In this document: one piece after another, positions 1,394 through 39,707 of the stretch | Numbering within the stretch: the stretch's first letter is position 1 | How the letters are laid out: each line of letters starts with the position of its first letter | Virus record (IMG/VR): IMGVR_UViG_3300042504_000295 | Span: 1-39,707 of that record | Origin: a virus | Length of the DNA stretch: 39,707 nt | Reading direction: 5' to 3' (one strand) | The notes under the pieces: model-generated | What the model saw: the letters and a program-made list of their open reading frames with translations, nothing else | The model's database searches: none | What the model was told of the DNA's origin: nothing | Translations under genes and position numbers: made by a program

Positions 1394-2926
1394 TTAACTT
1401 CCCATCCAACTTGTTCCTACATGGGACGAAGCATAAGCCTTAGTTGAACGGTTGTCAAGTTTATTGTACTCACCCCGGCTTGCGACTGGGTATGAGAAGG
1501 TCAGCGCAATGGCGTCAGCAGCGTCGGGCGACGCCAAGCCACGGGCTTTCATGTCTTTTTTTGACTCCAGAAAAATCGACCCTTTGGAGTCTGGCTTCAT
1601 CATAGGCGAGATTAGGTCAGTTTTCAAGAACCTGTCGTTTGGGATGCTGGCCGACTTCAGCCAGTCGCGCATGTCGCCCCAAATCTGCGCCCTCATGTTG
1701 CCGTACATGGCCGGGTTGCGTGACTTCCAGCCGAAGTTGACACCCTTGATCTTGTAGCGCTGCTCTTTCAGCCGGTCCACGATGCCGGCGCCTAGCCCAC
1801 CCTCGTCGATAAACACCATCGCCGGCTTGAACTCTTCGATCGCCTCAATGACGTACCCGACCACCGTCATGGTGTCGTCGCCGCGGTGCCGAATGATGCG
1901 CGTGATGTCTCGCCCCTGCCGCACCGCAATCACCGTGGCGTCTGCTCCGAACCGCGCCGGGTCCACCCCGATCACGATCGGCGCGCTTGGGTCTTTGTAC
2001 AGGGGCCTGCGCATGGCGTCGTCCACCACCAGGCTGGAGATAAACTGGTCGTCGCCAGCGTTCGGGAACTCGCCGTACACCTCGACGTGCGCCTGTGACG
2101 AGTCCGGCCCGTATTCATCGATGATCTGTTGGTAGACCTGCTTGTCCGTCCCCTCAACCGTGCGTGCGTCCACCACCTTGGTGTTCCAGAACTCGCGCTT
2201 GCTGTGGAACGTCTCGTAGAAGTACCCCGTGTTGCGCCGTGGGTTGGAGAACGCCAGCCAGAACCGGTTCGGGGTGTTCTCTGTAAAGAAACCAGCGGTC
2301 ACCGCCCAAATGGCGTCCGCAATACCGCTGGCCTCGTCGAAGATTACCATCACACCGTCGAAGTTGTGCACACCCGCGTAGGCGTCTGGGTTCTCTTCCG
2401 ACCACAGCCGGCCCTCGACGCCCCAGTAACGGGTGCCCTTTTTCAGGTCGCGCTCGACCAGCTCGGTCAGCCACTTGGCCGGCATGAGCCTGGTGGCGCT
2501 TACCTCAAACCAGTGGCTGTTTAAGGACATGGCCAGCCACTTGGTGATCTCGGCCCATGTGATGCTTCTGAGCTGGCTTTCTGAGTTGGCCGACACGATC
2601 GTGGTCGAGCCGATGCGGGTGGACAGCATCCAGATCACGATCCATGAGACCAGTGCCGATTTGCCGATACCGCGCCCGCTACTCACCGCGTGGCGTAGGG
2701 TGTTGAAGTCCAGCTTACCCTTGTTCTGCTTGATGTGATCGCCGATCTGCTGGAGCACCTCGCGCTGCCATTTGCGCGGCCCCGAGAAGTGTTCCAGCGG
2801 TGTGCCCTTGACGCCCCACGGGAACGTGTACAGCACAAACGCCAGTGGGTTGTCCTTGTACTGTGGCGACCAGAGCCTGGCCATCAACTCTTGTTCGTCT
2901 TCGGCCGAATAGATGGTGGTTTGCAT
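1394..2926 (-). CDS. terL: Terminase large subunit (left copy)
   Basis: A 510-residue packaging motor. The ATPase domain has a Walker A motif GRGIGKS at residues 84-90 and a Walker B VMVIFDE at 192-198. The C-terminal RNase H-like nuclease has VDPARFGAD (D322, D329), the IDEGG motif (D374) and the late aspartates in SPDAADAI (D468, D471). It pumps DNA into the procapsid through the portal and cuts the concatemer. The start ATG overlaps the TerS stop (TAATG). It is about 80 percent identical by eye to the second copy at 37547-39073; the linker before the shared C-terminal SWMGS differs most. Confidence 0.97.
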   Translation of the reverse strand: MQTTIYSAEDEQELMARLWSPQYKDNPLAFVLYTFPWGVKGTPLEHFSGPRKWQREVLQQIGDHIKQNKGKLDFNTLRHAVSSGRGIGKSALVSWIVIWMLSTRIGSTTIVSANSESQLRSITWAEITKWLAMSLNSHWFEVSATRLMPAKWLTELVERDLKKGTRYWGVEGRLWSEENPDAYAGVHNFDGVMVIFDEASGIADAIWAVTAGFFTENTPNRFWLAFSNPRRNTGYFYETFHSKREFWNTKVVDARTVEGTDKQVYQQIIDEYGPDSSQAHVEVYGEFPNAGDDQFISSLVVDDAMRRPLYKDPSAPIVIGVDPARFGADATVIAVRQGRDITRIIRHRGDDTMTVVGYVIEAIEEFKPAMVFIDEGGLGAGIVDRLKEQRYKIKGVNFGWKSRNPAMYGNMRAQIWGDMRDWLKSASIPNDRFLKTDLISPMMKPDSKGSIFLESKKDMKARGLASPDAADAIALTFSYPVASRGEYNKLDNRSTKAYASSHVGTSWMGS

Positions 2927-3393
2927 TAGGCGCTTTGTTTGTGTGGGGCCAGTCTGGCTTGAAGCGCTGGCATGGTCGTAGACGAGGGCTCGTGTGCAAT
3001 CACATCCACCACGTCGGCGGCGCGGCGCTCGGCTTCGGCCAGTGCACCAAGAATACTGATCTGTTGGTTGACGTCGACCGTGATGGCCTGCTTGGCTACC
3101 CAGCCGTGGACGTTTTGCAGAATAGCCAGGCTGGCCTTGGCGTCGCCCTCTTCAGCTGCTTTGTGCAGCTGTTGGGACGCAAGCAGCTCCCCGTCGGCGC
3201 GGCCTTTTTGTTCGGCCAGCTGCGCCACTCTATCTAACTCGCACAACTGCCGGTAGGCGGTGGGCACCATGCCTGCTGCTAACGCCAGGTTGTCGCCCTT
3301 CAACCCAAGCTTGGCTGCGTCGTAGATGCGGTTAAGCACCGCCTCGGTGGCGCGCACTTCATTGATGACAAGTGGCAGTGAATGAAAACTCAT
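2926..3393 (-). CDS. Probable terminase small subunit
   Basis: A 155-residue protein directly upstream of terL, with overlapping stop and start codons. The N-terminal part (about residues 15-55) is helical and HTH-like (EAVLNRIYDAAKLG, then NLALAAGMVPTAYRQL), followed by a long helical segment with A-E-Q-K-G-R-A-D and A-K-A-S-L-A-I-L-Q. This is the layout of TerS proteins that recognise phage DNA and hand it to TerL. The call rests on position, size and helix pattern rather than on a diagnostic motif. The ATG at 3393 has no clear Shine-Dalgarno site, so the true start may be further inside. The right terminase copy has no such gene beside it. Confidence 0.7.
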   Translation of the reverse strand: MSFHSLPLVINEVRATEAVLNRIYDAAKLGLKGDNLALAAGMVPTAYRQLCELDRVAQLAEQKGRADGELLASQQLHKAAEEGDAKASLAILQNVHGWVAKQAITVDVNQQISILGALAEAERRAADVVDVIAHEPSSTTMPALQARLAPHKQSA

Positions 3394-3524
3394 AGATGTA
3401 TGGCCGCGTGGATGCGTGCGTGCATCTTATATTAAAAAAATAAAAATTGTTGCTGAACGCTACGCTACCGTTGACCGGTCCGCTCGGCCCTTCCCCTCCC
3501 CCCTCCAGCTCAAACCACCATGCA

Positions 3525-3572
3525 GTTAGTGTGTGCTTACTAACATTTTGTGGACAATGTGGACAGTCCACA
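3525..3572. repeat. Compound repeat module 1 (GTTAGT/ACTAAC plus TGTGGAC boxes)
   Basis: GTTAGT at 3525-3530 and ACTAAC at 3539-3544 form an inverted repeat with an 8-base spacer. Three bases later, at 3548-3572, come two direct TGTGGACA units at 9-bp period and then an inverted GTCCACA, so that TGTGGAC-A-GTCCACA (3558-3572) is a perfect palindrome. The whole 25-bp block 3548-3572 recurs exactly at 3651-3675. Confidence 0.85.
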
Positions 3573-3594
3573 ATCAGCCGTCAACCCAAACTGC

Positions 3595-3630
3595 ATGCAT
3601 GTACGTTTATACAGTACTGTATGCATGTAC
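3595..3630. repeat. 12-bp palindrome flanked by 10-bp direct repeats
   Basis: TACAGTACTGTA at 3610-3621 is a perfect palindrome. ATGCATGTAC occurs at 3595-3604 and again at 3621-3630, bracketing it. The arrangement looks like a binding site for a dimeric regulator, lying between the two compound repeat modules. No regulator with a recognisable DNA-binding domain could be tied to it. Confidence 0.7.
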
Positions 3631-3650
3631 ATCACTGTATGAACTGTGGT

Positions 3651-3696
3651 TTGTGGACAATGTGGACAGTCCACATTTAGGTTAGTGCCTACTAAC
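3651..3696. repeat. Compound repeat module 2 (mirror order of module 1)
   Basis: The 25-bp block at 3651-3675 is identical to 3548-3572. It is followed by GTTAGT (3681-3686) and ACTAAC (3691-3696), with a 4-base spacer. The same two elements occur as in module 1 but in the opposite order. Confidence 0.85.
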
Positions 3697-3729
3697 TTAA
3701 ACTTGGCGCCAGAGTTCGCGGCCGGCGAG

Positions 3730-3756
3730 TGTGGACAATGTGGACCATTTGGACAA
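3730..3756 (+). repeat. Three tandem 9-bp iterons
   Basis: TGTGGACAA, TGTGGACCA and TTTGGACAA stand head to tail without spacer at 3730-3738, 3739-3747 and 3748-3756. An AT-rich run follows from 3757 to about 3820. Tandem boxes next to AT-rich DNA resemble the DnaA-box/unwinding-element layout of replication origins. Confidence 0.8.
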
Positions 3757-3825
3757 GCAATTAAATTCGCTGGACCCTAATTGCCTATTTTTTAAGCACT
3801 TATTTTCTGTTAACTGTAATTCTCA

Positions 3826-3843
3826 TAGTCCACAATATCCACA
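3826..3843 (-). repeat. Two tandem DnaA-box-like 9-mers
   Basis: TAGTCCACA (3826-3834) and ATATCCACA (3835-3843) are adjacent. The second differs by one base from the enteric DnaA box TTATCCACA. They lie in the opposite orientation to the iterons at 3730-3756, on the other side of the AT-rich stretch. Confidence 0.7.
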
Positions 3844-3877
3844 AACAGCTCAAACCCGCATTCCCATTGGCCGCGCA

Positions 3878-3951
3878 TGTGGACACCGGCCGCGCTTTCA
3901 CGCCGTCCACAATCAATCCACCGCGTCCACAGTTACAAATTGTTACAAATT
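3878..3951. repeat. Further degenerate GTCCACA boxes and a 10-bp tandem repeat
   Basis: TGTGGACAC (3878-3886), CCGTCCACA (3903-3911) and GCGTCCACA (3923-3931) extend the box array. They are followed at once by GTTACAAATT twice in perfect tandem (3932-3941 and 3942-3951). This lies immediately upstream of the early promoter, so proteins bound here could control it. Confidence 0.7.
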
Positions 3952-3966
3952 CTTTTGCAACAACGC

Positions 3967-3994
3967 TTGACAATGGGCGGAAATCACTTACAAT
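3967..3994 (+). promoter_or_regulatory. Strong sigma70-type early promoter
   Basis: TTGACA at 3967-3972 and TACAAT at 3989-3994 are separated by 16 bp: a perfect -35 and a one-mismatch -10. It points to the plus-strand operon that begins at 4027, leaving a leader of about 25-30 bases with an AGGAAC ribosome site. Host RNA polymerase should recognise it, which fits the absence of a phage RNA polymerase gene. Confidence 0.75.
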
Positions 3995-4026
3995 AGATAC
4001 ATCATCAACCAATCAGGAACTACTGT

Positions 4027-4235: not shown

Positions 4236-4556
4236 ATGAAAAACGCACTACTCACGCCTGACGGTTATTTTTTCGAGCAATTGCCTAATGGCATGTTTAC
4301 CGACGGCGACATGACGTTCAACTATGACATGTCAAACGACATGCGCGGCGTCATATGGCAAAACATGGACGGCCAATATTGCGCCGACGGCGACGGCATG
4401 GTTGTCGCTGCGCACGACGGCGACGCGTGGGTTGTCACCGATCAGGGCGACGTTATCGGCGCGTTTGACACCCTGCGCGCGGCCATTATGTGCGCGCAGC
4501 AGCAGCTCGCCACCAATTACCCGGAAATCTACGAAAACCATGTGGGGGAATTATGA
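4236..4556 (+). CDS. Early protein, 106 residues, unknown
   Basis: The start is placed at ATG 4236 because CGGAG lies about ten bases upstream; a longer frame from a TTG at 4188 would overlap the previous stop and lacks a ribosome site. The product begins MKNALLTPDGYFFEQLPNGM and is acidic, with many D-G and G-D turns (GDGMVVAAHDGDAWVVTDQGD near residues 53-73), which suggests small beta repeats. The C-terminal third looks helical (LRAAIMCAQQQLA). No catalytic motif is visible. Its stop overlaps the start of the next gene (ATGA), so the two are probably coupled. Confidence 0.75.
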   Translation: MKNALLTPDGYFFEQLPNGMFTDGDMTFNYDMSNDMRGVIWQNMDGQYCADGDGMVVAAHDGDAWVVTDQGDVIGAFDTLRAAIMCAQQQLATNYPEIYENHVGEL

Positions 4557-4658: not shown

Positions 4659-5414
4659 ATGACAAACAAATTTTTGGGTTTTATTGCGTATGAGGGACCG
4701 TCCGAAATCGACGGCGCGCCTATTGTGGTGATCGTCAACAAAATCGACAGCGACAGCGAAAACGAAAAGACCGGCGCGCTTGTACAGACGTTTATTATCC
4801 GGTCCGACGTTTCACCGGTCGAAGCGCTTAAGACCGGCGACGACGTGAGCATTTGTGGCGATTGTGTGCACCGGCCAATTGTGGCCAGCGAAACCGGCGA
4901 AGCGCCGTGCTACGTTAACGTCGGTCGTTCGGTTTTGTCGGTGTTTAACGCGTATAAACGCGGCCGCTATACAAAAGCGGACCCGGCCACAATCGCGCGC
5001 GCTTTGGCCGGCAAAATTGTCCGGCTTGGCACCTATGGGGACCCTTTCGCTGCGCCGGTCCGCATGTGGTCACAAATCACACGCTACGCGGCCGGACGTC
5101 GGGGCTATACGCACCAATGGCAAAACGCCAAATTTGACGCCAGCGCGTGGTCGCCGTTGGTGATGGCCAGCGCGGACACAATCGAACAGGCCGCGCTGGC
5201 CAATTTGCTTGGCATGCGCGTTTTCCGCGTGTCTGTCGGTGTGGACAAACAAGCGGGCGAAGTTATCTGTCCGGCCAGCGCAGAGGGCGGCCGTCGGTCC
5301 ACATGTGCCAAATGCACACTCTGCGCCGGTACATCGATTCAAGCGCGAGACGTGGTGATCGCTGATCACGCTAGCGGCCATCAAAAGCGCGTTATTCGTT
5401 TGGCCAGCGTCTGA
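4659..5414 (+). CDS. Conserved early phage protein of 251 residues, function unknown
   Basis: The ATG lies seven bases after AGGGG. The protein begins MTNKFLGFIAYEGPSEIDGAPIV, continues with a segment T-G-A-L-V-Q-T-F-I-I-R near residues 41-51 and a cysteine pair in ICGDCVHRP (about residues 65-73), then CYVNVG and a KRGRY stretch. Near the C terminus there is a second cysteine cluster (C-P-A-S, CAKCTLC). I have seen this overall pattern in uncharacterised phage proteins; paired CxxC motifs suggest a structural zinc site. It is the largest early gene. Its DNA is unusually dense in GGCC and CGGTCC-like words. Confidence 0.8.
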   Translation: MTNKFLGFIAYEGPSEIDGAPIVVIVNKIDSDSENEKTGALVQTFIIRSDVSPVEALKTGDDVSICGDCVHRPIVASETGEAPCYVNVGRSVLSVFNAYKRGRYTKADPATIARALAGKIVRLGTYGDPFAAPVRMWSQITRYAAGRRGYTHQWQNAKFDASAWSPLVMASADTIEQAALANLLGMRVFRVSVGVDKQAGEVICPASAEGGRRSTCAKCTLCAGTSIQARDVVIADHASGHQKRVIRLASV

Positions 5415-6308: not shown

Positions 6309-6333
6309 AAAAGGCCCTTAACGGGCCTTTTTT
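6307..6333. terminator. Bidirectional intrinsic terminator
   Basis: AAAAAA-GGCCC-TTAAC-GGGCC-TTTTTT: a 5-bp GC stem extended by A-T pairs, with U tracts on both strands. It separates the converging early (plus) and replication (minus) operons and touches the stop codons of both. Confidence 0.9.
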
Positions 6334-8633
6334 CATTTGACAGCGCGGAGGGTCGACGGCGGGGGATCCTCTACCATGTCGCGCAATTCGGACCGGGACA
6401 TTTCGACCATATCAGGCGCGCAGAAAATGTGCTTCTTGGTATCGTGCCGGCGGGACTTCAAGCGGCCACAGTCAACCCAACCGGCCTCTTTCAAGGCATG
6501 CAAAAGCGCGCCCTGGACGACTTTAATGGCGCCAGGCGCGGACCCTTGCAGGCGATCACACAGCGCATGCCAGGGGGCGCCAACGACACCTTTGGAAAAC
6601 TCACCGATACGGGCGCGCATCAACTCCACCAGGAACGATTCGGCGCCGGACATGCCGGCCTCAACCATGATGGCCTTGGCTTCAGTCATCATCGGGGGTA
6701 GACCGGGGTTAAACGCGGCGACGTTGCGCTGGTGCAGCCATGCGGCCACGCAGGACATGCCGCCCGACTTGTACCAACTCCACAGGCCCACAGACTCGGC
6801 GGGGGACATACGGCCGGCGTCGGACCAGATGACAAACCACCGGCGGTCTTCTGTGGGGAGATTGATCGCGACGCGCTCGTTGGAGTAAGCCAGGACGAAC
6901 AAACGATTAAGGGCCATGTAGGGGTGCAGGCCCTTGCGGTTGATCGGCAGCATGTCAGGGGGCGCAGCGATCAGGGGCTTGAGTTGATTTTCCAGCGCGC
7001 GGCGGTCTTTGGCTTCGGCCTGGCGCAGTTCGTTGATCACCATAACCTCGGTCTCAAGGGCGTAACCCCATTGGGACGTCAATTCTTCATTGCGCACCAG
7101 GGAGACGTTGACCAGGGCATCGCCGCCAATGGCCCAGAGGAACGGGGCCCAGAGGGTATCTTTACCGACACCAGGCGCGCCACCATGTAGAACGGCGTGG
7201 TTAATCTTACGGTTGGGGTTTTGGACCTTGAAGGCCATCACGTCAAGGACATGCGCGCGCTCGCGGGCGTCAGGGATCATGCGCTCGACGTGAGCCAGCC
7301 AAGGGCCGGCATCGCCGGCCACGGCCGGGGGACGGGCGTCGCGCCAGCGGTTACCGTACACCAGGCCATCACGGGCGCAGAGGATCGATTCGCCGGGGGC
7401 GTAGGTCAGGCCGACCAGCGCGCGGGCGCCCTTGGCTTGGCGGTGCTCATCAAAACTGGTGGCGGCTTCGATTTTCGAGCGCTTGCCGTGGATTGAGTTG
7501 CAGCCGATGTGCCGGAAGATGGCGTTAAACGTGGCGCGGCTGACCTCGCGGCGCTCTTGCATGTCAAAGTAGGCGTCGTCATCTTGCAGGTAGGCGAAGC
7601 GCTCATACCAGCCCTCTTTCTCGACACGGCCCAGCTCCTTGCGCTCCACCTCGGCCACGATAGCGGCGGCGGCGTCGGGGTACTTGGGCGTCGGTGCCAG
7701 CTTACTCAGGGCTGACTCCATCGCCGCGGCCAGCAGCTCCTCGCGCAGGCCGGGGGTGTGCTTGGGGCCACCATTGTCGGCCACCCATTGCAAGAACACA
7801 GAAGAATCCAGTTCGGTGCAGTGCGAGTGCAGGCAGCAGTAGGCACGGCTGGCGGGCAGGTAGCGGCCCTCGGGGTTGCCGTCGGTGTGCTGGGCGCTGT
7901 TGGGGCAGATGACACCGGCCCAGCCTTCTTGGTTGGGCTTGGACAGCAGCATGCCGTTATCGGACAGCCACACCATCACGTCGTCGGTGCCGTCGTCGGA
8001 GATACGAATCGGGCGGTGGGCATCCTCGGCTTCACCAGGCACCACGTTCAGGGCGGCGCAGATCTGCTCAAGGGTGAAGTCACGCTCGGGCTTAAACTCA
8101 CGCAGCTGGGCGGCGAAGTTGTTGCGGCCGGGCTTCAGGTTAATCGAGCCAGGGATACGGAAATTGCGCACCGCGTTGATCGCGCCTTTGTCGGTGTAAC
8201 CCGCCTCGGCAATGGCGGCGATCGCCGCGCTGAACTCGGCCTTGGTGGGCTGCTCGCTGAACACGTAGCCCCATTGGAACGAGCCGGGGCTGGTCTCGAT
8301 CTTCCACGTCGGCTCAAGCGGCGGGACGTTGGGGGCCTTCTCAGGGTCACCCACGTCGTCCAGCACCATCACCAGCACGTACTCGCACGCAGCAGCACTG
8401 GCGCCGGGGTGGCCATCCTTGAAGCGGTCGATGATGAACGACGCAGTGTTGCCGTAAATGGCCCACTCGGGCTTGATCTTGGCCGTGGGCAACATGGCTG
8501 GCCAAGTGGCCTTGATGGCGCCGTTGGCGTGGAACTGCATCTCGCCCTCTTTGAGCTGGGGCTTCTGGCGTACCAGCAAAAAAGTTTCGCCCTCTGGGGC
8601 AAGTCTGGTAAGATGATCAACGAAATCTTTCAC
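6333..8633 (-). CDS. Primase-helicase (AEP-like primase plus SF3/D5-like helicase)
   Basis: A 766-residue fusion. The N-terminal third resembles archaeo-eukaryotic/RepB-type primases (LVMVLDDVGD at residues 87-96, NFRIPGSINLKPGR near 157). A possible zinc-binding patch follows (CPNSAQH 243-249, CCLHSHC 266-272). The C-terminal helicase has Walker A GGAPGVGKDT at 484-493 and Walker B VMVINE at 530-535, as in DUF5906/D5-like phage helicases. It should prime and unwind DNA at the fork. Translation starts at GTG 8633 behind an AAAGGAG site. It is last in the replication operon and ends at the bidirectional terminator. Confidence 0.85.
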   Translation of the reverse strand: MKDFVDHLTRLAPEGETFLLVRQKPQLKEGEMQFHANGAIKATWPAMLPTAKIKPEWAIYGNTASFIIDRFKDGHPGASAAACEYVLVMVLDDVGDPEKAPNVPPLEPTWKIETSPGSFQWGYVFSEQPTKAEFSAAIAAIAEAGYTDKGAINAVRNFRIPGSINLKPGRNNFAAQLREFKPERDFTLEQICAALNVVPGEAEDAHRPIRISDDGTDDVMVWLSDNGMLLSKPNQEGWAGVICPNSAQHTDGNPEGRYLPASRAYCCLHSHCTELDSSVFLQWVADNGGPKHTPGLREELLAAAMESALSKLAPTPKYPDAAAAIVAEVERKELGRVEKEGWYERFAYLQDDDAYFDMQERREVSRATFNAIFRHIGCNSIHGKRSKIEAATSFDEHRQAKGARALVGLTYAPGESILCARDGLVYGNRWRDARPPAVAGDAGPWLAHVERMIPDARERAHVLDVMAFKVQNPNRKINHAVLHGGAPGVGKDTLWAPFLWAIGGDALVNVSLVRNEELTSQWGYALETEVMVINELRQAEAKDRRALENQLKPLIAAPPDMLPINRKGLHPYMALNRLFVLAYSNERVAINLPTEDRRWFVIWSDAGRMSPAESVGLWSWYKSGGMSCVAAWLHQRNVAAFNPGLPPMMTEAKAIMVEAGMSGAESFLVELMRARIGEFSKGVVGAPWHALCDRLQGSAPGAIKVVQGALLHALKEAGWVDCGRLKSRRHDTKKHIFCAPDMVEMSRSELRDMVEDPPPSTLRAVK

Positions 8634-8658: not shown

Positions 8659-8692
8659 AGCCCCGGCCTAACCCGCCGGGGCTTTCTTTTTT
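8659..8692 (+). terminator. Hairpin with U tract reading rightward
   Basis: AGCCCCGGC (8659-8667) pairs with GCCGGGGCT (8675-8683) and is followed on the plus strand by TTTCTTTTTT. It would stop rightward transcripts reading antisense into the replication operon; on the minus strand there is no U tract after the stem, so leftward transcription may pass to the primase gene. Confidence 0.7.
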
Positions 8693-9530
8693 ACTCAATA
8701 GTTGTTTCGTAAACTTCGCACGATTCGGAACAACCACCATCTTCGTCGGCGCGGGCGTCTCTCATCGGTGTGCCTTTGTTCTCTTCGTACAACTTGAACA
8801 GCGTAATGGTGTCCATATTCTTGCGAAAAAACACGCGGTCGCCGACTTGCGGGCCGTGTGATCGGTACTGCATTTCCATGCGGCGGTGAAAATCATAAAT
8901 GCTGGCGTCACGTTCGATCTGCATAAACTGCTTCTTGATCGACTTCTTGAAGCAACCTTGGCAGTTACCCTCAAACTCGTCGATGCCCAAGTCGAACGCC
9001 TGCTCTGCCCACCAGTCAAGAATCTCAGCTTTGTCGGTAGGCCAGACGTCGATCAGGGGGTATTCGATATTTTTGGCCTCGGCAGTCTTGCTGACGCGGC
9101 GCTTCTCGTCTTCGCGGATGCCAATTGCTGTTGGGATTGTGCGGTAGTCCAGCCCCAAGCTGCGCAAGTACGAGTTCATGGGGTTGATCTTAAGTTCACG
9201 GGTGCAATACGGGAACGCCATATTGGGGATGCCGTACTTCTTGATAACTTCCTCAAACGGCGCGCCAGTACGCGATGCGCTGGCGTAATCAACAACCTTG
9301 TGGGTGCTAGCCACCCGGCCCTCATGCACAACTGCCTCTAGCCATACCGTCTTGAAATCAAAATGCTTGTCGCAGTTGTGAACAAACTCCAGCGTCTTAG
9401 GGTGCTCAAGGCCGGTGTTGGCAAACGTCACAATGAAGTCGTAACGGTCTGACCAGTTGTTTAGCAGCATCTTGGTCATGTAGGCGCTGGTGCGACCGCC
9501 CGAAAATGAGATTTGGTATTGCGGTTTCAT
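8691..9530 (-). CDS. PP-loop ATPase / PAPS-reductase-like protein
   Basis: A 279-residue protein with the PP-loop SGGRTS at residues 10-15, followed by FANTGLEHPKT, a stretch typical of the phosphoadenylylsulfate reductase/DndC/ThiI-like superfamily. Downstream cysteines occur in PYCTRELK (about residue 108), in NCQGCFKK (about 200) and near the C terminus. Such enzymes adenylate a substrate and often handle sulfur. In phages they occur beside replication genes and may take part in nucleic-acid modification, but the substrate is unknown. The start overlaps the stop of the polymerase gene, which ties it to replication. Confidence 0.8.
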   Translation of the reverse strand: MKPQYQISFSGGRTSAYMTKMLLNNWSDRYDFIVTFANTGLEHPKTLEFVHNCDKHFDFKTVWLEAVVHEGRVASTHKVVDYASASRTGAPFEEVIKKYGIPNMAFPYCTRELKINPMNSYLRSLGLDYRTIPTAIGIREDEKRRVSKTAEAKNIEYPLIDVWPTDKAEILDWWAEQAFDLGIDEFEGNCQGCFKKSIKKQFMQIERDASIYDFHRRMEMQYRSHGPQVGDRVFFRKNMDTITLFKLYEENKGTPMRDARADEDGGCSESCEVYETTIE

Positions 9531-34550: not shown

Positions 34551-36723
34551 TTATCTCTCCTTGGGGTGGCATCATCTCAGGCTGCATTTCTGGCATCTGA
34601 CGCTGCTCATTCATCATGACCATATTGTCGTTGCTTTCCATCGCAGCCGCCACAACACCCATAGCAATGTCTTGAATCTGCTGCTCACTCATGCCAGCTT
34701 GCACGGCGCTGATACGCTTAGTCTCAGCATCAAATGCTTTGATCTGGTTGGCCTGTTCCTTGATCTCTAAGTCACGGACTTCCATGCTCTTGTTGACGTT
34801 TTGCAACATTTGGAACATGTTCTCCATCTCAGCCTGCATGGCCTGCATCTGCTGGTTGGCAGCAGCCAAAGCTGGATCGTCATCATCGGCCAGCACTTTG
34901 GGGTCGATGGTCTTTTTGAACCGCTTGGCAAGGTCTTGGGCACCGGGCCAGTCCATGTTCTTGACAAACAGATCGCCAGCAACTTGCCACAACTGTGGGT
35001 TGCCTTGCAGCAACTGAGCCATGCTCTCCAAAGCCTCTTGACGCTTGGTAGCGTAGCCGGGACCGGTAATCACGCGCACATCGTACTTGCCAACGCCGGG
35101 GTTGTAGATCTTCTCGATCAACACGCCTTCTTGGTCCACGATGCGCTTGACCGGCTCTTGCTGCCCTGGGTTCATCTTGACGGTCGATGGCTCACCATCT
35201 TCGCCAATGATGCGGGCGATGCGCTCGGTGTCGTAAATCTTGGGGATCAGGTCCACGAGTTGACGGCCAATGTGACGGATCGCACGGGCCAAGTTGTCAA
35301 CGTAGTGGTAGGTGCCAATGTCGCCCTCACGCTGACGCGCAAGAATGGCTTTACCCGAACGCTCGTTGCTGGTCATGCCCAGCGATGCGTTGTACTGGCC
35401 GGTGGCCGACTTGATGTCCTCGGCAGCACCCGCCTTGGCTTGCAGCAGGCCGCTGGAGGCCATCGGAGGCTGTGCCCGCTGGGGTAGTGGCAACACAGCG
35501 CCTTGGCCGTCTGTAACGTCTGGATTGACCTCAAGGTAAGGCCAGTTGTTTGTGTTGGCAGTCTTCCACTGCTGCTCGAAGCCTTCAAACTGACCGCCGT
35601 ACCCGATGAACGGGGCTTTGGGGGCCAGCGCCAGCATCTCAGCTTCCTGCGACACCCAGTAGTTGTACATGCGCTGGGCATCCTTGGCGTTGCGCACCAA
35701 GCCCGACACGTACATCTGGCCGTCAACCTCGAACTCGTTACCAACCACGCGCACCACGGGGATGTAGGAGCCAGCCCAATCGCGTTCTTCAAGGATGTCG
35801 TAGCCGTTGATCTTGCACCACTTGACCTTTTTGCGATCAGCTTCGCGGGTGCGGATCGGCTTGCCAAACATTTCGCGCAGCATCTTGTCCTCGGGCGTAC
35901 CGCTAAACGCAGTCTGGTTGCCGGGGTACAGGTTGAGCGTGTGCTTCTCGTACTCGATGTAGAAATACTCGGCGATGCGGATGGTGTTCTCGCCGATCCA
36001 CTGGGCGATGGACTGATCGCCCACGCCAAGGCTCATGAGGGTGCTGATAGGCGCTGCATCGGGGTACAAACGCTCGTACTCAGTTTTGGGGATGTCTTCC
36101 GTAATAAAGCACCAGCGGGCATCTGCGCCTGCGGGGTCTTGGATCAAGGGGTCCATGTAGACGCTGAAGCTGTTGCGGATGCGCCCAATCTTGATGTCTT
36201 GATCGAACGTCTTGTCGTCGCAGTACTCGGTCAAGACCCGGATGTAGCCTTCGCCGTAGGACACTTGGTTCTCGCAGGCGGTGTCATAGGCCACGTCAGC
36301 ATCGGAGATGTACTCGATGTGGCGAATCACGCCGTTGAACACGTCTGCCATGTCCACATCGGCCTTGTCGTCAGCCGGGATCACCTTGATGCCAGGGCGG
36401 TTCATGCGCTGCTCGTTCGTCACTTGGTGAACGTGCTGCGGCAGCTTGTTGATGGTCAGGCAGGGGCGGGCATTGATCGTTTGACCTTGCAAAGAGCCAC
36501 GGGTCTGGAGCACATCAGCGGGCCACTGCCACTGGTTGTCTGGAGAGCCAGCGTAGAACCGCAAATCGTCAAGCTCGTCTTCACGAGTCTCGGAAAACGC
36601 AGTCATCGCTGTGTTCAAACGTGAACGGGCAACGGTCAGAATTTCCTCGGAACCGCCTTTTGACGAGTTTGGTCCGTTTTTTGCCACATTTGCTGCGGCT
36701 ACGATTCCGGTGGTGTCTTTCAT
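34537..36723 (-). CDS. Portal protein, P22 type
   Basis: A 728-residue portal of the P22 family (P22 gp1 has 725 residues). Recognisable blocks are F-Y-A-G-S-P-D-N-Q-W near residues 56-65, INKLPQHVHQVTNEQRMNRP, the D-P-L-I-Q-D-P-A-G-A-D-A-R-W segment and the long C-terminal helices with M-Q-A-E-M-E-N-M-F-Q that form the P22-like barrel. Twelve copies form the DNA channel at one head vertex and the terminase docks on it. The ATG overlaps the groES stop. Its first 45 codons are repeated at the left window edge. Confidence 0.95.
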   Translation of the reverse strand: MKDTTGIVAAANVAKNGPNSSKGGSEEILTVARSRLNTAMTAFSETREDELDDLRFYAGSPDNQWQWPADVLQTRGSLQGQTINARPCLTINKLPQHVHQVTNEQRMNRPGIKVIPADDKADVDMADVFNGVIRHIEYISDADVAYDTACENQVSYGEGYIRVLTEYCDDKTFDQDIKIGRIRNSFSVYMDPLIQDPAGADARWCFITEDIPKTEYERLYPDAAPISTLMSLGVGDQSIAQWIGENTIRIAEYFYIEYEKHTLNLYPGNQTAFSGTPEDKMLREMFGKPIRTREADRKKVKWCKINGYDILEERDWAGSYIPVVRVVGNEFEVDGQMYVSGLVRNAKDAQRMYNYWVSQEAEMLALAPKAPFIGYGGQFEGFEQQWKTANTNNWPYLEVNPDVTDGQGAVLPLPQRAQPPMASSGLLQAKAGAAEDIKSATGQYNASLGMTSNERSGKAILARQREGDIGTYHYVDNLARAIRHIGRQLVDLIPKIYDTERIARIIGEDGEPSTVKMNPGQQEPVKRIVDQEGVLIEKIYNPGVGKYDVRVITGPGYATKRQEALESMAQLLQGNPQLWQVAGDLFVKNMDWPGAQDLAKRFKKTIDPKVLADDDDPALAAANQQMQAMQAEMENMFQMLQNVNKSMEVRDLEIKEQANQIKAFDAETKRISAVQAGMSEQQIQDIAMGVVAAAMESNDNMVMMNEQRQMPEMQPEMMPPQGEINEMR

Positions 36724-36968
36724 GCGTCAAATACTCCGAGGGTGTGTGATTCCCTCATGACCAGAAGGTTGTCACCCTCGTATTTTAGGTCTTGGCCGAT
36801 GGAATCACCAAATAGCACTTTGTCGCCGACTTTCACGTCCTTGGCTTCAGGCCCAACGGAGATTACCACACCCGTGCCAGTTTGTTTCTGTCTCAAAAGG
36901 ATAAACAACTCGTGTTTTTCCATGTCTGGACGCACGATCAGGCAGTCTTGCAGGGCTTGGAGGCTCAT
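36720..36968 (-). CDS. Phage GroES-like co-chaperonin (right copy)
   Basis: The same 82-residue Cpn10-like product as at 132-380, with only silent differences as far as I can see. It is the copy linked to the complete portal gene. Its ATG overlaps the stop of the MPLVKS gene and its TGA overlaps the portal ATG. Confidence 0.85.
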   Translation of the reverse strand: MSLQALQDCLIVRPDMEKHELFILLRQKQTGTGVVISVGPEAKDVKVGDKVLFGDSIGQDLKYEGDNLLVMRESHTLGVFDA

Positions 36969-37117
36969 TTTTTGGTCTTCATTGTTGGTTTTTTGGCAGC
37001 TTCACGTTTGACGGCATACGCGATTGCCACACTTTGGGCTACGGGTTTACCCGCAGACACTTCGGCCTTGACGTTCTTGCGAAATGCCTCTTTTGAGGGT
37101 GACTTGACGAGTGGCAT
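36965..37117 (-). CDS. Small lysine-rich protein, MPLVKS type (right copy)
   Basis: A 50-residue counterpart of 377-547: [20 protein letters not shown], then A-G-K-P-V-A-Q-S-V-A-I-A-Y-A-V-K-R, ending in the same K-K-P-T-M-K-T-K-K. It lacks the A-G-S-G-N-P stretch before the tail. Start and stop both overlap neighbours (TGATG). Confidence 0.75.
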   Translation of the reverse strand: MPLVKSPSKEAFRKNVKAEVSAGKPVAQSVAIAYAVKREAAKKPTMKTKK

Positions 37118-37281
37118 CACTTGGCCTTTTTAGCAGGTTTTGCAGTCTTGGCCGACTCCTTAAAGTCCTTGGCCGTAGGTGCACCGGCAGCGCCGGGTTT
37201 GCGCATCTTCTCGCCAGAGCCAGCAGCGATACGCTCGCGCTTGGCGTTGATGTTTGCATAGAGTCCGGGTTTTGTAGCCAT
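37117..37281 (-). CDS. Small basic protein, [11 protein letters not shown] type (right copy)
   Basis: A 54-residue counterpart of 547-711; the first 36 residues are identical, and differences cluster in the lysine/alanine-rich end. The ATG lies two bases behind the previous stop; the stop overlaps the next ATG. Conservation of protein with silent DNA changes supports it being a translated gene. Confidence 0.75.
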   Translation of the reverse strand: MATKPGLYANINAKRERIAAGSGEKMRKPGAAGAPTAKDFKESAKTAKPAKKAK

Positions 37282-37283
37282 GA

Positions 37284-37547
37284 TCAGCACTTCCATCTTT
37301 TAAGTGATGCCTTGGCCCGTTCTGCTGGACCTTTGGCGTTTTTGACAACCCCTTCCATGCGGGCACAGAACGAATCTTTACGGCCCTGGTCGGCCTTTGT
37401 CTTGGGGCTGGGCGCTGGCGCTTTGAGATTGCTGCCAGTAGCTGCGTTGTACTTTGCACGGCCCTTCTCTGTCAAGCCCGCGCCCTTGGATGCAGGCAGC
37501 TTCTCGCCACGACCGACAGAGAGGGAAACACTTTTCTTGGTAGCCAT
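37284..37547 (-). CDS. Small basic protein, DUF6321-like (right copy)
   Basis: An 87-residue counterpart of 714-977. The middle and C-terminal blocks (GAGLTEKGRAKYNAATGSN, SFCARM, ASLKRWKC) are identical, and the N-terminal positions 6-19 vary. Here the ATG overlaps the terminase stop directly (TGATG), which shows the arrangement without the HNH gene. Confidence 0.8.
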   Translation of the reverse strand: MATKKSVSLSVGRGEKLPASKGAGLTEKGRAKYNAATGSNLKAPAPSPKTKADQGRKDSFCARMEGVVKNAKGPAERAKASLKRWKC

Positions 37548-39073
37548 CACGAACCCATCCATGAATTTGTGGCAGCACCGTTTTGAGCGTTGCGCCTAGT
37601 GAGTGGTTGCTCAGTGTACTCTCTGTGAGCCACAGGGAACGCGAAAGTCACGCAAATGGCGTCAGCAGCATCGGGTGACGCCAAGCCACGGGCTTTCATG
37701 TCCTTCTTGCTCTCCAGAAAAATCGTACCTCTTGAATCAGGCTTGATCATAGGCGAAACCAGATCAGTCTTCAAGAACCTGTCCTTTGGAATGCTGGCAG
37801 ATCTCAGCCAATCTTTCATCTTGCCCCACATCTCAGCACGCTTATTGCCGTACATGATGGGGTTCGCACTCTTGTTGCCAAAGTTGACACCCTTGATCTT
37901 GTACCGCTGCTCTTTCAGCCGGTCAACAATGCCAGCGCCAAGACCTCCCTCATCAATCACCACCAGGGCAGGCTTGAACTCCTCAATGGCCTCAATGATG
38001 TGTCCCACCACCGTCATGGTGTCATCCCCTCGATGCCGGTCAATGCGCACAATGTCACGGCCCTGCCTGATGGCAATCACCGTGGCATCTGCTCCAAACC
38101 TAGCTGGGTCAACTCCAATGATGATCGGCGCTGTCTGGTCCTTGTACTTAGACCTGCCCATCGCTTCATCCACAATGTTTGACGGAATGAACTGGTCGTC
38201 ACCAGCGTTCGGGAACTGCCCGTAAACCTCGACGTGAGCCTGGCTGCTGTCTGGTCCATACTCGTCAATGATGTTCTGGTACACAGCCTTGTCAGTGCCT
38301 TCCACCGTCCGGGCATCCACCACCTTGGTGTTCCAGAAATCCCTCTTGCTGTGAAAGGTTTCGTAGAAGTACCCCGTGTTTCGCCGTGGGTTGGAAAAAG
38401 CCAGCCACAAGCGATTAGGTGTGTTTTCGGTAAAGAATCCAGCAGTCACTGCCCAGATGCTGTCCTCAATACCGGATGCTTCGTCGAAGATCACCATCAC
38501 ACCATCAAAGTTGTGAACTCCAGCATAGGCATCTGGGTTTTCGGCTGACCACAGCCTGCCCTCAACAGCCCAATAGCGTGTGCCTTTTTTCAGGTCTTTT
38601 TCCACCAGCTCAGTGAGCCAGTTGGCAGGGGTGATCTTGGTCGCCGCAACTTCAAACCAGTGGCTGTTAATGCTCATCGCCAACCACTTGGTGATCTCGG
38701 CCCATGTCACCGCACGAAGCTGCGACTCTGAGTTGGCCGAAATGATGGTGGTCGAGCCAATCCTGGTGGACAGCATCCAGATGGTGAGCCACGACACCAG
38801 TGCAGACTTGCCAATACCACGGCCAGAAGACACAGCATTGCGCAGTGTCTCAAAGTCTATGCGGCCACCCTGGCGCTTGATGTGCTCAGTGATCTCACGC
38901 AGCACCTCCCTCTGCCACTTCCTTGGCCCCTTGAAGTTCGCCAGTGGCGTGTTCTCTTGGCCCCAAGGAAAAGCAAACAGCACAAAGGCTTCGGGGTCAT
39001 CGGCAATCGCCGGTGTCCACAGCGTTGCCATTAACTCCTGTTCGTCTTCGGGCTTGTAGATGGTGGTTTGCAT
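37547..39073 (-). CDS. terL: Terminase large subunit (right copy)
   Basis: A 508-residue TerL with the same Walker A (GRGIGKS), Walker B (VMVIFDE) and nuclease residues (VDPARFGAD, IDEGG, SPDAADAI) as the left copy. The two differ at about a fifth of positions, spread over the protein, with changes concentrated before the shared C-terminal SWMGS. All catalytic residues are kept, so both encode functional enzymes. No TerS gene precedes it; a plus-strand gene starts 29 bases away. Confidence 0.97.
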   Translation of the reverse strand: MQTTIYKPEDEQELMATLWTPAIADDPEAFVLFAFPWGQENTPLANFKGPRKWQREVLREITEHIKRQGGRIDFETLRNAVSSGRGIGKSALVSWLTIWMLSTRIGSTTIISANSESQLRAVTWAEITKWLAMSINSHWFEVAATKITPANWLTELVEKDLKKGTRYWAVEGRLWSAENPDAYAGVHNFDGVMVIFDEASGIEDSIWAVTAGFFTENTPNRLWLAFSNPRRNTGYFYETFHSKRDFWNTKVVDARTVEGTDKAVYQNIIDEYGPDSSQAHVEVYGQFPNAGDDQFIPSNIVDEAMGRSKYKDQTAPIIIGVDPARFGADATVIAIRQGRDIVRIDRHRGDDTMTVVGHIIEAIEEFKPALVVIDEGGLGAGIVDRLKEQRYKIKGVNFGNKSANPIMYGNKRAEMWGKMKDWLRSASIPKDRFLKTDLVSPMIKPDSRGTIFLESKKDMKARGLASPDAADAICVTFAFPVAHREYTEQPLTRRNAQNGAATNSWMGS

Positions 39074-39101
39074 TTATCTAGCGTTTTGATAGAATGGAGC
39101 C

Positions 39102-39308
39102 ATGATTCTATCTCCAATTGTCAACACCGACATCAAGATGCCAAAGCAAATGCTTGACGCACTTGGCTTGCATGAAACCAGGTGCGTTGTCACCGGCGTA
39201 AGCGTTGTCACCGAAGAATCGGTGCGGGCATTCCTGTCTGCTCGGTACGGTGAAAAATTCGCCAGCAAATTTAACCCCAAATTCCTGTTCAGTATCCCAG
39301 GCGCTTGA
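39102..39308 (+). CDS. Small protein, 68 residues, divergent from terL
   Basis: The product MILSPIVNTDIKMPKQMLDA has a hydrophobic strand, a helix with Q-M-L-D-A-L-G-L-H, then a beta-helix unit (V-V-T-G-V-S-V-V-T-E-E-S-V-R-A-F-L). TGGAG precedes the ATG. It has no counterpart in the left copy of the locus. It overlaps the end of the converging partial gene by 20 bases. No family is recognised. Confidence 0.5.
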   Translation: MILSPIVNTDIKMPKQMLDALGLHETRCVVTGVSVVTEESVRAFLSARYGEKFASKFNPKFLFSIPGA

Positions 39309-39707
39309 GCAACTGGTTGGTGATGACTCCCGCGTAAGGGTGCATTTGCATCGCCCTTAAATCTGATGCCCTCGGATTTTTTGGGTCCGGTATGCCACGG
39401 CCTTGAACCACTTGCGGCAACAACTCAAACACATTGACATCTTCAGCCAAGGTGCCAATGCCCTGACCCGGCACCCCACCTGGGTACGCCGGATGCGTCG
39501 ATCTCAACAACGGGCTTCCAGCAAAGATCTCACCCACGTTCATCACACCACCCTCTTGCGCAGCCAATTGCGCAGGGTCAGACACGGCCAACCTTGCGCC
39601 ACCAATGTTCAGACCTCCAGTATTGCGGAAATTGGTGTCCATCATATTTTTCACGGCCTTGCGCACCTTGTCTGGCGCATCGCGGAACTGCTGCACACTG
39701 GCCGGAT
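39289..39707 (-). CDS. C-terminal part of an unknown gene, cut by window edge
   Basis: The frame stays open to the right window edge, so only the last 139 residues are seen, ending H-P-Y-A-G-V-I-T-N-Q-L-L-K-R-L-G-Y. Visible blocks are DKVRKAVKNMMDTNFRNTGG, SDPAQLAAQEGGVMNVGEIF and a proline/glycine-rich middle (HPAYPGGVPGQG). A GTG at 39696 could serve as a start, but the coding frame continues beyond it. The family is not recognised. Nothing similar exists elsewhere in the window. Confidence 0.6.
   Translation of the reverse strand, partial: PASVQQFRDAPDKVRKAVKNMMDTNFRNTGGLNIGGARLAVSDPAQLAAQEGGVMNVGEIFAGSPLLRSTHPAYPGGVPGQGIGTLAEDVNVFELLPQVVQGRGIPDPKNPRASDLRAMQMHPYAGVITNQLLKRLGY

Follow-up and report, generated by a model that had tools for sequence, protein, structure and literature searches.

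A 9-mer array beside terS in a P22-like podovirus is a predicted iteron origin that co-varies with the wing of the phage primase-helicase

The repeat array and its genomic setting

The window is one IMG/VR virus record and comprises 39,707 bases. It encodes a P22-like podovirus set of portal, capsid, terminase, tail and ejection genes, together with a family A DNA polymerase, an exonuclease, a helicase and a primase-helicase. The record looks composite or circularly overlapped: its first 400 or so bases recur from 36589 onward at about 97%. The right end (36589-39707) then leads into a second TerL, with an 80% identical protein, and a TerS-like ORF, both of which end at the contig edge; a second contig, G001, extends from the first TerL through an HNH gene to the portal. 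The genome itself probably measures about 36.6 kb, and a related phage may be the source of the last 3 kb of the record. As a weak hint of the host, a Rhodoferax (Comamonadaceae) metagenome bin contains two relatives. The early protein encoded at 4659-5414 (251 aa, DUF7227-like, phrog_2554) has matches among Klebsiella phages, and its relatives in mycobacterial, Caulobacter and roseophage genomes are 39-47% identical to it. A PAPS-reductase-like gene (8691-9530), located between the polymerase and the primase, is missing in the very close relatives L005 and L006.

An array of 9-mers including copies of TTGTCCACA spans 3549-3931, in the intergenic space that separates terS from a divergent early operon (Table 1). 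The initial annotation had described a cluster of DnaA-box-like 9-mers at this place, and the cluster is real: the region 3394-4026 holds 3, 9 and 16 copies of TTGTCCACA at no more than 0, 1 and 2 mismatches (cumulative counts), against means of 0.015, 0.33 and 3.2, and maxima of 1, 4 and 12, in 1000 first-order shuffles of the same region. The exact 9-bp tandems (three copies at 3730-3756, two at 3826-3843) and the AT-rich stretch between them were confirmed as well; the second copy of the 3826-3843 tandem has two mismatches to TTGTCCACA. Two features were absent from that annotation. The two tandem sets are oppositely oriented across the AT-rich core, and a pair of identical 26-bp modules begins at 3547 and 3650. 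This 26-mer, TTTGTGGACAATGTGGACAGTCCACA, has exact matches in 24 viral contigs. Short iterons occur as tandems and in either orientation in the window array. Inside the core, TTGCCTATTTTTTAAGCA is found near 3781-3798 and is conserved in L005 and L006 by alignment.

Other motifs accompany the array. A second dyad, GTTAGT-N(4-8)-ACTAAC, lies alongside it at 3525-3545 and 3681-3697 in the window and is strongly multiplied between the array and terS in some relatives (L026, L030, L078, L309). Between the two modules (3599-3645), a LexA/SOS-box-like CTGT-N8-ACAG is present in L005, L006 and L015 and degenerate in the window, accompanied by conserved CATACAGTACTGTAT palindromes. An Rfam search gave no match, and comparison of the array region with named phages gave no nucleotide match. 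On the closed 36,588-bp circle the net GC skew is nonzero; the raw minimum of the cumulative skew falls at 4258 and the detrended minimum at 23.7 kb.

Table 1. Features of the array region and of the primase-helicase gene in the window.
Feature	Position	Strand	Remarks
Small terminase-like protein, TerS	2926..3393	-	excluded as word-setting reader
Intergenic proposed origin region	3394..4026	.	between terS (-) and divergent early operon (+); from ORFs, place conserved in relatives
Module 1, TTTGTGGACAATGTGGACAGTCCACA	3547..3572	.	two direct 9-mers and one inverted overlapping copy
Module 2, same 26-mer	3650..3675	.	103 bp from module 1
Exact TTGTCCACA copies	3549-3557, 3652-3660, 3730-3738	all -	motif count
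One-mismatch copies	starts 3558, 3661, 3739, 3748, 3826, 3878		motif count
Two-mismatch copies, among others	starts 3835, 3903, 3923		motif count
Tandem of three 9-mers, TTGTCCACA, TGGTCCACA, TTGTCCAAA	3730..3756	-	one flank of AT-rich core
AT-rich core	3757..3820	.	69% AT; proposed unwinding element
Tandem of two 9-mers, TAGTCCACA, ATATCCACA	3826..3843	+	other flank of core, opposite orientation
Three scattered degenerate copies	3878-3886, 3903-3911, 3923-3931	-, +, +	motif count
Sigma-70-like promoter of divergent early operon	3967..3994	+	TTGACA-16-TACAAT; consensus match only
Primase-helicase	6333..8633	-	766-aa ORF; proposed initiator and array reader
C-terminal winged-helix domain	6366..6590	-	residues about 682-756; AlphaFold2, pLDDT 86-93 over most
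Wing GRLKSRRHDTKKH	6429..6467	-	residues 723-735; candidate specificity residues K726, R728, D731

The primase-helicase and its C-terminal winged helix

The primase-helicase combines in one polypeptide a RepB'/PrimPol-like AEP primase, a helicase of the NrS-1/SaPI/D5 type (DUF5906) and a C-terminal winged helix, which is a predicted DNA-binding domain. The end of its gene is 2.4 kb away from the array, with the early operon in between. In a full-length AlphaFold2 model (mean pLDDT 76), the primase part is AEP-like with structural matches to RepB' and S-2L PrimPol. The solved helicase nearest to the ring-helicase part is that of NrS-1, both in sequence (E 6e-11) and in fold (E 1e-11), and this part also matches the SaPI5 primase-helicase (7ola) and PriRep1-dsDNA (7pds). 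Residues 600-766 are modelled by AlphaFold2 as a winged helix, and K726, R728 and D731 are all located in its wing loop. A Foldseek search with the isolated C-terminal domain returned nothing at E <=0.001, with weak generic winged-helix matches only, and a PDB sequence search with the same domain returned chance matches only. No second copy of the winged helix fused to another protein was found among the loci examined.

Coupling of the array word to the wing

A search via TerL revealed 80 relatives. About half of those with enough upstream sequence carry TTGTCCACA arrays upstream of terS, and most of the others carry homogeneous arrays of different 9-bp words at the same place, namely TAGCCAACA, TAGCCCACA, TGACCCAAA, TGACTCACA/TGACCCACA, TTGCCTACA, TGACTTACA and TGACYCACA. 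These words share a frame of roughly T-N-R-Y-Y-N-A-M-A and vary at five or six of the nine positions. Comparison of the same region in related phages, which the initial annotation had proposed, thus shows that the array keeps its place while its word is re-spelled as a block. Between the window and L005, TTGTCCACA changes to TAGCCAACA at exactly three bases, whereas about 60 bp of flank are identical in the best-conserved stretch; the TerL proteins are 97% identical and, swapped accessory genes aside, most of the shared DNA is 91-94% identical. Since near-identical phages differ in their word, a common host factor is not expected to explain the switch.

We compared the core proteins of 22 contigs, some whole and some partial, and looked for word-tracking residues in TerL, TerS, polymerase, primase-helicase, helicase, exonuclease and small proteins. 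Such residues fall in a single cluster, at the C-terminal end of the primase-helicase. The wing GRLKSRRHDTKKH occurs with the word TTGTCCACA, GRLASRGYQTKKH with TAGCCAACA, GRVASGDFQSKKH with TGACCCAAA, GLLKSRAHTTKKH with TGACYCACA, and GRIASRELITKKH with TAGCCCACA. Three further scans brought the set to 231 loci that have both array and wing, with words picked per locus by a heuristic, and the new pairs fit the pattern (for example GRLKSSLHDTKKH with TTGTCCATA, and GRLMSRDYTSKKH with TGACTAACA).

All primase and TerL columns from 160 distinct loci were scored with the uncertainty coefficient. The best column for word position 8 is R728, with a coefficient of 0.92 (92% of the entropy) against 0.62 for the next column; D731 is the best column for word positions 2 and 3, and K726 for position 6. 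Dependent and independent models of trait change were compared by the method of Pagel on a tree of the rest of the primase-helicase protein. The likelihood ratio test statistic was 55 for R728 and C8 (p 3e-11), 64 for K726 and C6, 50 for D731 and T2, and 94 for K and D combined (p 2e-19), with p ranging from 3e-10 to 2e-19 across tests and 10-28 parsimony changes per trait. The pattern was also scored on a held-out set of 114 loci not used in spotting it, from which the distantly related MW202483 lineage (L124, L125) was set aside because its word frame is ambiguous. R728 and C8 agreed in 114/114 of these loci and K726 was accompanied by C6 in 49/49, while D/E731 occurred with T2 in 93/114, a loose association. 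In the reverse direction, contigs fetched by the 26-bp array alone, some of them already seen, had the K..R..D wing in 16/16 cases with the domain in reach.

The array word is thus statistically coupled to the wing of the phage's own primase-helicase, by a code that is imperfect. Loci L225 (mostly TGACCCACA) and L254 (TAGCCAACA) have the same wing, GRLASREYQTKKH, and A726 is permissive, occurring with C, A or T at word position 6. At the level of sequence, the putative specificity residues of the proposed initiator co-vary with the iteron, as expected of an iteron origin with a cognate initiator.

Other candidate readers of the word were rejected: the variable proteins of the early operon are not common to word classes, and the HNH and PAPS-reductase genes are missing from a same-word relative. 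DnaA domain IV (DnaA_C) was found neither in the window nor in 30 related records other than MW202483, and a phage-encoded domain of this kind was set aside as a general reader since it is present in that record only. There it is a free-standing DnaA domain IV-like protein of the early operon (L124:7083-7379; Bac_DnaA_C, E 1e-17), and the array words of the same record are TTACRTAAA-like. Phage DSL-LC05 (OR003940, L123) has a related TerL and capsid, but TGACCCACTGGGTCA-like palindromes upstream of terS; its record annotates a repressor in the early operon.

The array as a predicted replication origin

The reading of the array as a replication origin is well supported by inference, because an AT-rich core lies between tandem iterons that face each other, relatives have the array at the same place, and its sites co-vary with the primase-helicase. 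Oppositely facing tandems around an AT-rich gap occur in 89/160 loci, where the gap has a mean AT content of 0.62 compared with 0.52 regionally; the reverse tandem arrangement is rarer (44/160 loci, AT 0.48). From the sequences and structural models, we put at about 0.85 the probability that the array is an iteron origin bound by the phage's own AEP-primase/SF3-type helicase initiator via its C-terminal winged helix. The winged helix would bind the 9-mers, and the two facing tandem sets would let the ring helicase assemble and melt the AT-rich core. The AEP primase domain of the same protein might then prime synthesis by the phage family A DNA polymerase as the origin fires. The wing loop would set word specificity, with Arg728 reading C8, Lys726 favouring C6 and residue 731 biasing positions 2-4.

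The initial annotation had taken the DnaA-box array for a probable origin, at which the phage would recruit host DnaA to start replication. Its origin half is upheld by the layout, the conserved place and the co-variation with the primase-helicase, while its DnaA half is not supported, given a word that switches between phages with 97% identical TerL and letters that track residues of the phage primase-helicase. TTGTCCACA is one base off the enteric DnaA box, the AT-rich core is present and some relatives (L057, L069) have TTATCCACA copies, all of which would suit DnaA; close relatives nevertheless use TAGCCAACA, TGACCCAAA, TTGCCTACA and others, again in step with the phage protein. Moreover, although DnaA and the DnaA box are highly conserved between hosts, no host-wide box consensus is kept, and we consider recruitment of DnaA very improbable. 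The likeness to DnaA boxes appears to be a coincidence or a convergence of 9-mer frames, and the type 1 iterons of P4, CTGTTCACC, resemble DnaA boxes in the same way as the window array.

Two further roles were weighed for the array. It adjoins terS-terL, and packaging sites made of repeated sequences exist, as in phage P1, so that a pac site read by TerS might be proposed. However, the TerS proteins of the window and L005 are identical over the helix-turn-helix and differ only in their C-terminal tail, while their words differ at three positions; TerS with the same helix-turn-helix thus cannot set the word. Relatives L046 and L049 likewise have near-identical TerS and different words, and the TerL and TerS columns follow the word less well than the wing, which leaves a pac site the least probable reading. 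An operator cluster, through which the primase-helicase domain or another phage regulator would control the divergent late and early promoters, with an origin secondary or absent, is unlikely in our view, if less so. In its favour, the transcription units on either side of the array diverge, a good sigma-70-like promoter is present at 3967, the region also contains extra dyads and SOS-box-like motifs, and replication proteins often autoregulate. On the other hand, the strain-variable small early proteins are not consistently common to a word class, and the tracking residues belong to a helicase-primase, which argues for a role in replication. The succession of tandem, AT-rich stretch and tandem is also that reported for the origins of phage-inducible chromosomal islands (PICIs) (PMC6092414).

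By analogy, the best reading is that the predicted iteron origin of the window would work like P4 alpha/ori and SaPI pri-rep-ori, but with a specificity code that can be read and that switches rapidly. P4 alpha consists of a primase, a helicase and a C-terminal winged helix that binds origin repeats (PMC4234260). The helicase of the window protein belongs to the same Pfam family, PF19263 (DUF5906), and shares one polypeptide with primase and winged helix; the P4 type 1 repeats of ori and crr form 9- to 11-bp tandems in both orientations, with a word frame TGT-Y-CAC that is shared with the window array. P4 differs in having a TOPRIM primase and a Pox_D5-type C-terminus, whereas the window primase is AEP-like and its primase-helicase gave no Pox_D5 match; at the sequence level, hhalign gave a probability of 0.1% between the window C-terminal domain and the origin-binding domain of P4 alpha. 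P4 is moreover a satellite with a separate crr, unlike the window, which encodes a complete tailed phage, has a polymerase of its own and carries a single array.

In SaPI/PICI elements and SCCmec Cch2, an initiator helicase, sometimes fused to a primase, reads short iterons via its C-terminal domain (PMC7581432). Every PICI origin has an AT-rich region with an iteron set on either side, a layout that has been called unique to PICIs (PMC6092414); the window likewise has two iteron sets around an AT-rich region. The SaPI origin is located directly 3' of the rep gene, whereas that proposed here lies 2.4 kb away, beside terS. SaPIs and PICIs also differ in mobile element, host and iteron, and the window has no island genes and is not a helper-dependent satellite, having its own portal, capsid, terminase and tail genes. 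We therefore filed the window under neither P4 nor SaPI, since homology to the P4 origin-binding domain was not detectable and the gene order and lifestyle are not those of SaPI.

NrS-1 also has an AEP-type primase and a helicase, and the window helicase is homologous to its C-terminal region. In the open-access text of PMC7102993, NrS-1 recognises an 8-nt sequence with two occurrences in its genome; an iteron array or a word-switching wing was not found in that open-access literature. PrimQH-type AEP families have an AEP primase, a P-loop ATPase and a winged helix, for which origin recognition has been proposed, likely through helix 3 and the wing (PMC5862659). The window protein resembles them by domain order, and its membership in PrimQH is putative. 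Origin reading was proposed there from structure, whereas the window family displays wing-word co-variation, which, on sequence grounds, is evidence for the idea of Kazlauskas et al. that C-terminal winged helices read origins (PMC5862659). In the PLE satellites of Vibrio cholerae, the DNA-binding domain of RepA varies in step with the origin, and replication requires a cognate pair (PMC8263062). Those initiators are of the RepA_N family and swap whole domains, whereas in the window family the change concerns two or three wing residues in an otherwise nearly constant protein.

More tentatively, the wing might be a natural, readable and fast-switching code for origin words, in which two or three substitutions would re-spell the whole array together and give mutually exclusive replicon specificities inside a single phage population under the pressure of conflict. 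The conflict meant in this possible reading would be with co-infecting relatives, with initiator-borrowing satellites or with nucleases directed at the origin, such as Odn of ICP1.

As the initial annotation had pointed out, a recognised origin is rare among phages of this layout, and the present analysis provides a predicted origin and a predicted initiator for a whole group of freshwater phages. It also calls for caution, as a phage genome may contain DnaA-box-like 9-mers that are not DnaA sites. More than 100 natural protein-DNA pairs expose how the wing of a winged helix may read bases, and how a replicon may re-spell all copies of its origin word yet stay viable. With these natural variants, the specificity of the proposed initiator is directly testable.
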